From: Rhodocaloribacter litoris
Lineage (GTDB): Bacteria; Bacteroidota; Rhodothermia; Rhodothermales; ISCAR-4553
DNA: 64,000 nt
Assembly: GCF_011682235.2 (NCBI RefSeq)
Contig: NZ_CP076718.1
Coordinates: 2,277,793-2,341,792 of the forward strand
Direction of reading: 5' to 3'
Shown: positions 58,482 to 58,911 of the stretch, in pieces
Layout: every line of letters starts with the position of its first letter
How positions within the stretch are numbered: position 1 is the first letter of the stretch
Made by a program: the position numbers and the translations under genes
Notes under the pieces: model-generated
What the model was told of the DNA's origin: nothing
What the model saw: the letters and a program-made list of their open reading frames with translations, nothing else
Databases searched by the model: none

Positions 58482-58556
58482 CGGGGTGTAGCGCAGCCCG
58501 GTTAGCGCGTCTGCTTTGGGAGCAGAAGGTCGCCGGTTCGAATCCGGCCACCCCGA
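58482..58556 (+). tRNA. tRNA-Pro (anticodon TGG)
   Basis: Acceptor CGGGGTG pairs with CACCCCG, discriminator A, CCA not encoded. Anticodon stem TCTGC/GCAGA with loop TTTGGGA, anticodon TGG. C1-G72 pairing is typical of tRNA-Pro. tRNA-Arg follows 35 bp downstream. Confidence 0.95.
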
Positions 58557-58591
58557 CCTCCGGGCGTGCCCTGCGCCCGACGTTTTCTCAC

Positions 58592-58911
58592 GCGCCCGTA
58601 GCTCAACCGGATAGAGCAGCGGACTTCTACGCAAACGTGGGCCGCTGTGGAGAAATCTGCAGCGTGTAAGCGGTCAAATTCGGGGGAACCTACGGGCAGC
58701 CGGGTCGGCTGCGCTATGGCCATCCCGAGCCAAGCCCCGGCGGGAAGCGGCCTGCCGGCCCCCGCCGGGGAAGGTGTAGAGACTAGACGGCCGCCACCTA
58801 CGTCCGGGCCCGAAGCCGGGGACCGGATAGGGTGAAGGGATAGTCCAGGGAGCCGGGAAACCGGCACAAACCTGAATCCGCAGGTTGCAGGTTCGAGTCC
58901 TGCCGGGCGTG
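58592..58911 (+). tRNA. tRNA-Arg (anticodon TCT), interrupted by a group I intron
   Basis: Exon 1 is 58592-58628 and exon 2 is 58875-58911. Joined, they give a normal 74-nt tRNA: acceptor GCGCCCG with CGGGCGT (G1-U72 wobble), D-arm GCTC/GAGC, anticodon stem GCGGA/TCCGC around loop CTTCTAA, T-arm GCAGG-TTCGAGT-CCTGC. Anticodon TCT reads AGA. The intron lies between anticodon position 36 and base 37. G73 is followed by CC, not CCA. Confidence 0.93.
58629..58874 (+). other. Group I intron (IC3-like) in tRNA-Arg(UCU)
   Basis: 246 nt, no ORF. The 5' exon ends in U and the intron ends in G, as group I introns require. Core signatures come in order: P near 58676-58690 (AAATTCGGGGGAACC), Q near 58722-58735 (ATCCCGAGCCAAGC), R at 58774-58792 (TAGAGACTAGACGG inside) and S at 58835-58846 (AAGGGATAGTCC). 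The Q and R sequences closely resemble the cyanobacterial tRNA-Leu and Azoarcus tRNA-Ile introns (subgroup IC3). It should self-splice with guanosine. A GGAG at 58658 could pair with the 5' exon as internal guide. Confidence 0.9.

Follow-up and report, generated by a model that had tools for sequence, protein, structure and literature searches.

How are AGA codons read in Rhodocaloribacter litoris, when the one gene found for the matching tRNA is cut in two? In the window analysed here (a stretch of 64,000 nucleotides of the genome), the tRNA-Arg(UCU) gene at 58592-58911 on the + strand is split by a 246-nt insert. Neither default ARAGORN nor Rfam at its gathering thresholds makes a call at 58592-58911, and because standard annotation overlooks both the tRNA and the intron, the genome seems to be without an essential tRNA. 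Other genomes of the order may have intron-split tRNAs that are overlooked likewise.

The interrupted gene and the anatomy of its insert

With introns allowed, ARAGORN returns tRNA-Arg(tct)i(39,246), and the exons, once joined, give 74 nt with a standard tRNA-Arg(UCU) fold. Both results bear out the original prediction that a complete tRNA requires the removal of exactly 246 nt, and the coordinates and length it gave were exact:

58482..58558, + strand: tRNA-Pro(UGG), a conserved neighbour (relatives show the arrangement Pro-Arg-Cys as well)
58592..58628, + strand: exon 1 of tRNA-Arg(UCU), ending at U36, the third anticodon base (ARAGORN intron mode, joined-exon fold, uninterrupted orthologues)
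58629..58874, + strand: group I intron, IC3-like, 246 nt (RF00028, covariation in 14 relatives, reading frames)
58875..58911, + strand: exon 2 of tRNA-Arg(UCU), beginning at A37, CCA not encoded (fold, uninterrupted orthologues)

The intron and exon 2 both begin with A in this genome, which would allow the boundary to shift by one base; the junction is fixed at U36|A37 because the intron begins with G in most relatives. Two intron-free genomes of another family of the order (f13), whose exons are identical to those of some members of family f3 (74/74) and nearly so to those of R. litoris (73/74), represent natural empty sites and thus confirm the junction.

The interrupted gene is the only tRNA found in the genome able to read AGA, a codon present in 8 of the 25 long frames of the window (a rough frame set). 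Rfam identifies 42 intact tRNAs, 41 of which were read with ARAGORN, the 42nd being the tRNA-Pro of the window; the rRNA operon is partly masked in the sequence used, and tRNA-Ile(GAU) and tRNA-Ala(UGC), which often lie there, would be hidden. The arginine anticodons among the intact tRNAs are ACG, CCG and CCU. A second intact tRNA-Arg(UCU), which according to the original prediction would have spoken against it, was looked for and found neither among these 42 tRNAs nor, as an uninterrupted copy, by a pattern search of the genome.

The insert matches the full Rfam group I intron model RF00028 (positions 1-253 of 253) at 58617-58867 with 36.7 bits at a permissive threshold (E = 5.7e-8 in a 381-nt stretch and 1.6e-7 in the 4.50-Mb genome). 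Since this lies below the gathering score of 50, the family call rests on comparative evidence. An alignment of 14 introns was compared with one constant set of helices, P1-P9, in which P7 forms a pseudoknot: 96.4% of the cells are paired, and 18 of 59 pairs show changes on both sides. None of 500 shuffles reached any of the structure measures, and slid partners gave only 26-48% pairing. The elements are as follows:

58626..58641, + strand: P1, formed by U34 C35 U36|A1 C2 with GUGGG at 58637-58641 (alignment)
58643..58664, + strand: P2 hairpin with a GAAA loop at 58652-58655 (6 of 9 pairs with double changes)
58670..58675, + strand: P3 5' strand GCGGUC, partner 58789-58794 (alignment)
58680..58728, + strand: P4 (58680-58685 / 58723-58728) around P5 and an extended P5 stem (alignment)
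58729..58775, + strand: P6 (58729-58731 / 58773-58775) and P6a (58735-58738 / 58767-58770) (alignment)
58781..58785, + strand: P7 5' strand GACUA (R element), guanosine-binding helix (invariant in 14)
58789..58794, + strand: P3 3' strand GGCCGC (alignment)
58797..58832, + strand: P8 (5 of 8 pairs with double changes)
58841..58845, + strand: P7 3' strand UAGUC (S element), pseudoknot with 58781-58785 (alignment)
58847..58873, + strand: P9.0 (58847-58849 / 58871-58873) around the P9 hairpin with its GAAA loop (58852-58865) (alignment)
58874, + strand: terminal intron guanosine (omega G) (invariant in 14 relatives)

P1 is short and has two U.G pairs; its U36.G is invariant in the 14 introns, the guide reads GYGGG across relatives, and base 1 of the intron and its P1 partner vary together (A-U, G-C or G-U). 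P7 and P4, the active-site core, are invariant throughout the alignment of 14; their pairing draws its support from resemblance to the family rather than from covariation. Several features read from the sequence in the original prediction are thereby upheld, i.e., an IC3-like core with P, Q, R and S in the correct order, and a U before the 5' splice site together with a terminal intron G, both invariant in the 14 relatives. The same holds for the lack of a homing enzyme, the longest open stretch within the 246 nt being 68 codons.

The insert also has the build of an IC3 intron, being short, without a P5abc domain, and with a single P9 hairpin and GAAA loops on P2 and P9; the subtype was read from such features. 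IC3 introns are described as being without P5a-d (PMC11835236). The insert belongs with the small IC3-type group I introns known from bacterial tRNAs.

Predicted splicing and competing readings

We put the probability at roughly 95% that a self-splicing group I intron of the IC3 type interrupts a single-copy tRNA-Arg(UCU) gene in its anticodon loop, at U36|A37, and the 246-base RNA very probably splices itself out. The anatomy comes from computation, whereas we infer both splicing steps from known group I chemistry, i.e., a cut started by guanosine, followed by an attack of the 3'-OH after the last intron G (PMC3984707). Accordingly modelled, U34-C35-U36 and the first two intron bases would form P1 with the internal guide GUGGG, placing U36.G at the cut; P7 would bind a free guanosine, which would cut after U36; and the freed 3'-OH of U36 would attack after the terminal intron G, joining U36 to A37. 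The predicted product is a normal tRNA for AGA codons. The strongest indirect support for splicing comes from the 16 genomes that keep the intron in the sole UCU tRNA gene seen.

That splicing in the cell requires a host protein, the intron not being autocatalytic, seems unlikely: some fungal group I introns need the tyrosyl-tRNA synthetase Cyt-18 (PMC3984707), but the compact IC3 intron of Azoarcus tRNA-Ile reportedly self-splices in vitro (Tanner and Cech 1996, as cited in PMC4033280). It is very improbable that catalysis has been lost from a former group I intron, the gene decaying while AGA is read by something else. This reading could draw on a core score below the Rfam cut-off and on the rarity of AGA, which in a rough frame set makes up about 1 per 1000 codons. 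However, no other UCU tRNA was found in the genome, several distant relatives have identical exons, and the one P3 pair peculiar to this genome is a compensated change (C-G versus U-A in 13 relatives). Although the insert lies next to the anticodon, a tRNA intron of the archaeal and eukaryotic kind, spliced by proteins at a bulge-helix-bulge, can be set aside, given its length, its P1-P9 core and its group I covariation, and given that the bacterial tRNA introns listed in PMC4033280 are group I only.

Distribution and neighbouring introns in the Rhodothermales

The intron is not confined to R. litoris. An RF00028 search over 114 genomes of the order identified the interrupted gene also in the second genome of its own family (f1) and, within f3, in 14 out of 16 genomes, in both families adjoining tRNA-Pro(UGG) and tRNA-Cys(GCA). 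The tRNA-Arg(UCU) gene itself was not found in the remaining two f3 genomes, and the intron is thus present in 16/16 f1 and f3 genomes where the gene was found. The gene is uninterrupted in 52 other genomes of the order (46 and six more), and intron-free relatives keep the Pro-Arg-Cys order. The U36|A37 introns of the relatives measure 194-277 nt, save one with a gap of N. A dedicated model built from 14 introns scores these 14 at 207-263 bits and, over the whole order, the 16 genomes at 197-263 bits versus 110 for the next best; on 395 genomes drawn from the phylum it found no further U36|A37 intron in tRNA-Arg(UCU). As anticipated, the host is of Rhodothermota/Bacteroidota type (Rhodothermales, Rhodothermota); the order was placed through one f3 genome, which agrees with 'Rhodothermaceae bacterium bin80' at 1300 of 1300 bases. 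The intron is not a singleton, being common to two families; it lacks a mobility enzyme and is fixed in no fewer than two families of the Rhodothermales.

Other candidates did not survive inspection. The one apparent interruption of tRNA-Arg(UCU) met by exon pattern in another part of the phylum (G202, L221) reflects a partial duplication in tandem, in which a copy of the first exon half and a spacer precede the complete gene, and not an intron; most other exon-pattern matches look like chance, as a reversed-pattern control matches too.

The view that the gene is intact in all other families of the order was overturned by a different group I intron, inserted in tRNA-Arg(UCU) at U34|C35 in 13 genomes of f12 and f13 (205-640 nt). 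The longest of these (L407, L414, L417) encode a PD-(D/E)XK homing enzyme, PF11645 (PDDEXK_5) being found in two scanned introns (E = 2.8e-42 and 2.5e-35), while ten more genomes have shorter ones with apparent remains of the enzyme frame or without a frame. The f12/f13 introns share with the 36/37 intron the host gene and the Pro-Arg-Cys cluster, but are inserted two bases upstream, in some cases carry the PDDEXK_5 enzyme, and form their own clade (100/99 for the seven that could be placed). Monophyly of the tRNA-Arg(UCU) introns as a whole is not rejected (p 0.54). In another family of the phylum, f48, a single genome (G445) has a 34/35-site tRNA-Arg(UCU) intron (L402), not placed with those of f12/f13; the same genome also has a group I intron in tRNA-Leu(UAA) (L381).

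Further group I introns were met in the course of the searches, and their ARAGORN names were revised according to the U...G rule: in f3, 'Leu(CAA/CAG)' became tRNA-fMet with an intron after U33, 'Gln(CTG)' became tRNA-Ile(CAU) with an intron after U36, and 'Ser' in f12 became Leu(UAA) or Arg(UCU). The tRNA-fMet introns of f3 (L047, L050, L062, L063, L070, L071, L073-L080, L082) appear in ARAGORN as Leu(CAA/CAG) or Met. Introns of tRNA-Asn(GUU) lie after position 33 in f3 (L081, L083-L088) and after 35 in other families (L042, L387, L388). Those of tRNA-Ile(CAU) occur in Planctomycetota (L096, L100, L102, L118, L161, L168) and in two genomes of the phylum of the window (L039, L385). Introns of tRNA-Thr(UGU) at U36|A37 come from proteobacterial and Bacilli bins (L095, L097, L105, L114, L119, L138, L142, L151, L152), and the eight that were placed form one clade with high support. 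R. litoris itself has a second group I intron, in 23S rRNA (L002:1501-2192, C1:2531385 onwards; RF00028 33.2 bits); a LAGLIDADG_1 protein of 149 aa (E 9.5e-24) comes after it.

Relatives and evolutionary history of the 36/37 intron

The insertion site, thought at first to be perhaps new, is already used elsewhere. Named genomes were scanned for introns that end before A37-A38-U39-C40. Among the matches listed, alphaproteobacteria, with Agrobacterium and Bartonella among them, have U36|A37 introns in tRNA-Arg(CCU), gammaproteobacteria and planctomycetes have them in tRNA-Ile(CAU), and proteobacterial and Bacilli bins in tRNA-Thr(UGU); Arg(UCU) accounts for one record among the matches listed. 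For ten pattern matches ARAGORN gave no intron-containing tRNA, seven of them being ordinary tRNA-Arg genes.

Outside its own set, the dedicated model scores best on the Arg(CCU) intron of Bartonella (117 bits), with Leu(UAA) of f12 near 110. The intron tree, built from known IC3 introns without a non-IC3 outgroup, places the UCU introns among those of Arg(CCU), Leu(UAA), Thr(UGU) and fMet, and resolves neither the deep order nor the closest group; the 36/37 introns therefore group among IC3 introns, in line with the proposed affiliation. The alphaproteobacterial tRNA-Arg(CCU) introns, such as that of Agrobacterium, are said to have been described by Reinhold-Hurek and Shub in 1992. They share the site (U36|A37) and IC3 core of the present intron, are similar in size, and at 85-117 bits rank near the top in the dedicated model once the UCU introns are set apart, but interrupt the CCU isoacceptor in another phylum, differ in the P1 exon at position 34, and are separate from the UCU introns, which form their own clade (99/95). 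The Azoarcus tRNA-Ile(CAU) intron is likewise a compact IC3 intron after U36, with GAAA loops on P2 and P9. In contrast, Ile(CAU) introns, among which the Azoarcus sequence itself was absent from the tree, have another host tRNA and fall elsewhere (99/96). The tRNA-Leu(UAA) intron of cyanobacteria and plastids, usually without a homing enzyme, is also IC3 and in the anticodon loop, but its site is after U34; further families of the Rhodothermales have Leu(UAA) introns too.

A review of 2014 lists group I introns of bacterial tRNAs from cyanobacteria, alpha- and betaproteobacteria only (PMC4033280). In the open-licence literature searched, no report was found of such an intron from a bacterial tRNA-Arg(UCU) or of any group I intron from Rhodothermota, which is weak evidence; the tRNA-Arg(UCU) host, as the original prediction had it, and the phylum Rhodothermota both appear to be new for such introns.

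The intron-core tree unites the 36/37 introns of Arg(UCU) in a single clade (99/95, or 93/94 once the 34/35 introns are added), in which f1 and f3 are separate branches. In the host tree, reconstructed from RpoB, RpoC and YchF, family f4, whose gene is uninterrupted, is sister to f3 (98/94), and f1 falls in a part of the tree that lacks resolution. A clade of f1 and f3 is rejected (p 0.0056) and a clade of f1, f3 and f4 is not (p 0.145), so that the host-tree tests are compatible both with a single gain and later loss from f4 and with transfer of the intron between f1 and f3. It is conceivable, if rather doubtful, that tRNA-Arg(UCU) was hit at U36|A37 and U34|C35 by two lineages, and that the enzyme-free 36/37 intron moved between f1 and f3. 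Such movement, if true, would not be by homing but would depend on reverse splicing or on recombination through the tRNA gene.

The Rhodothermales, an intron-rich order outside the groups listed so far, thus have group I introns in Arg(UCU), fMet, Leu(UAA), Asn and Ile(CAU). With relatives that have and lack the intron in a fixed gene order, and with one lineage carrying a homing enzyme and one without, they form a natural set in which to study the persistence and spread of introns that lack an enzyme.
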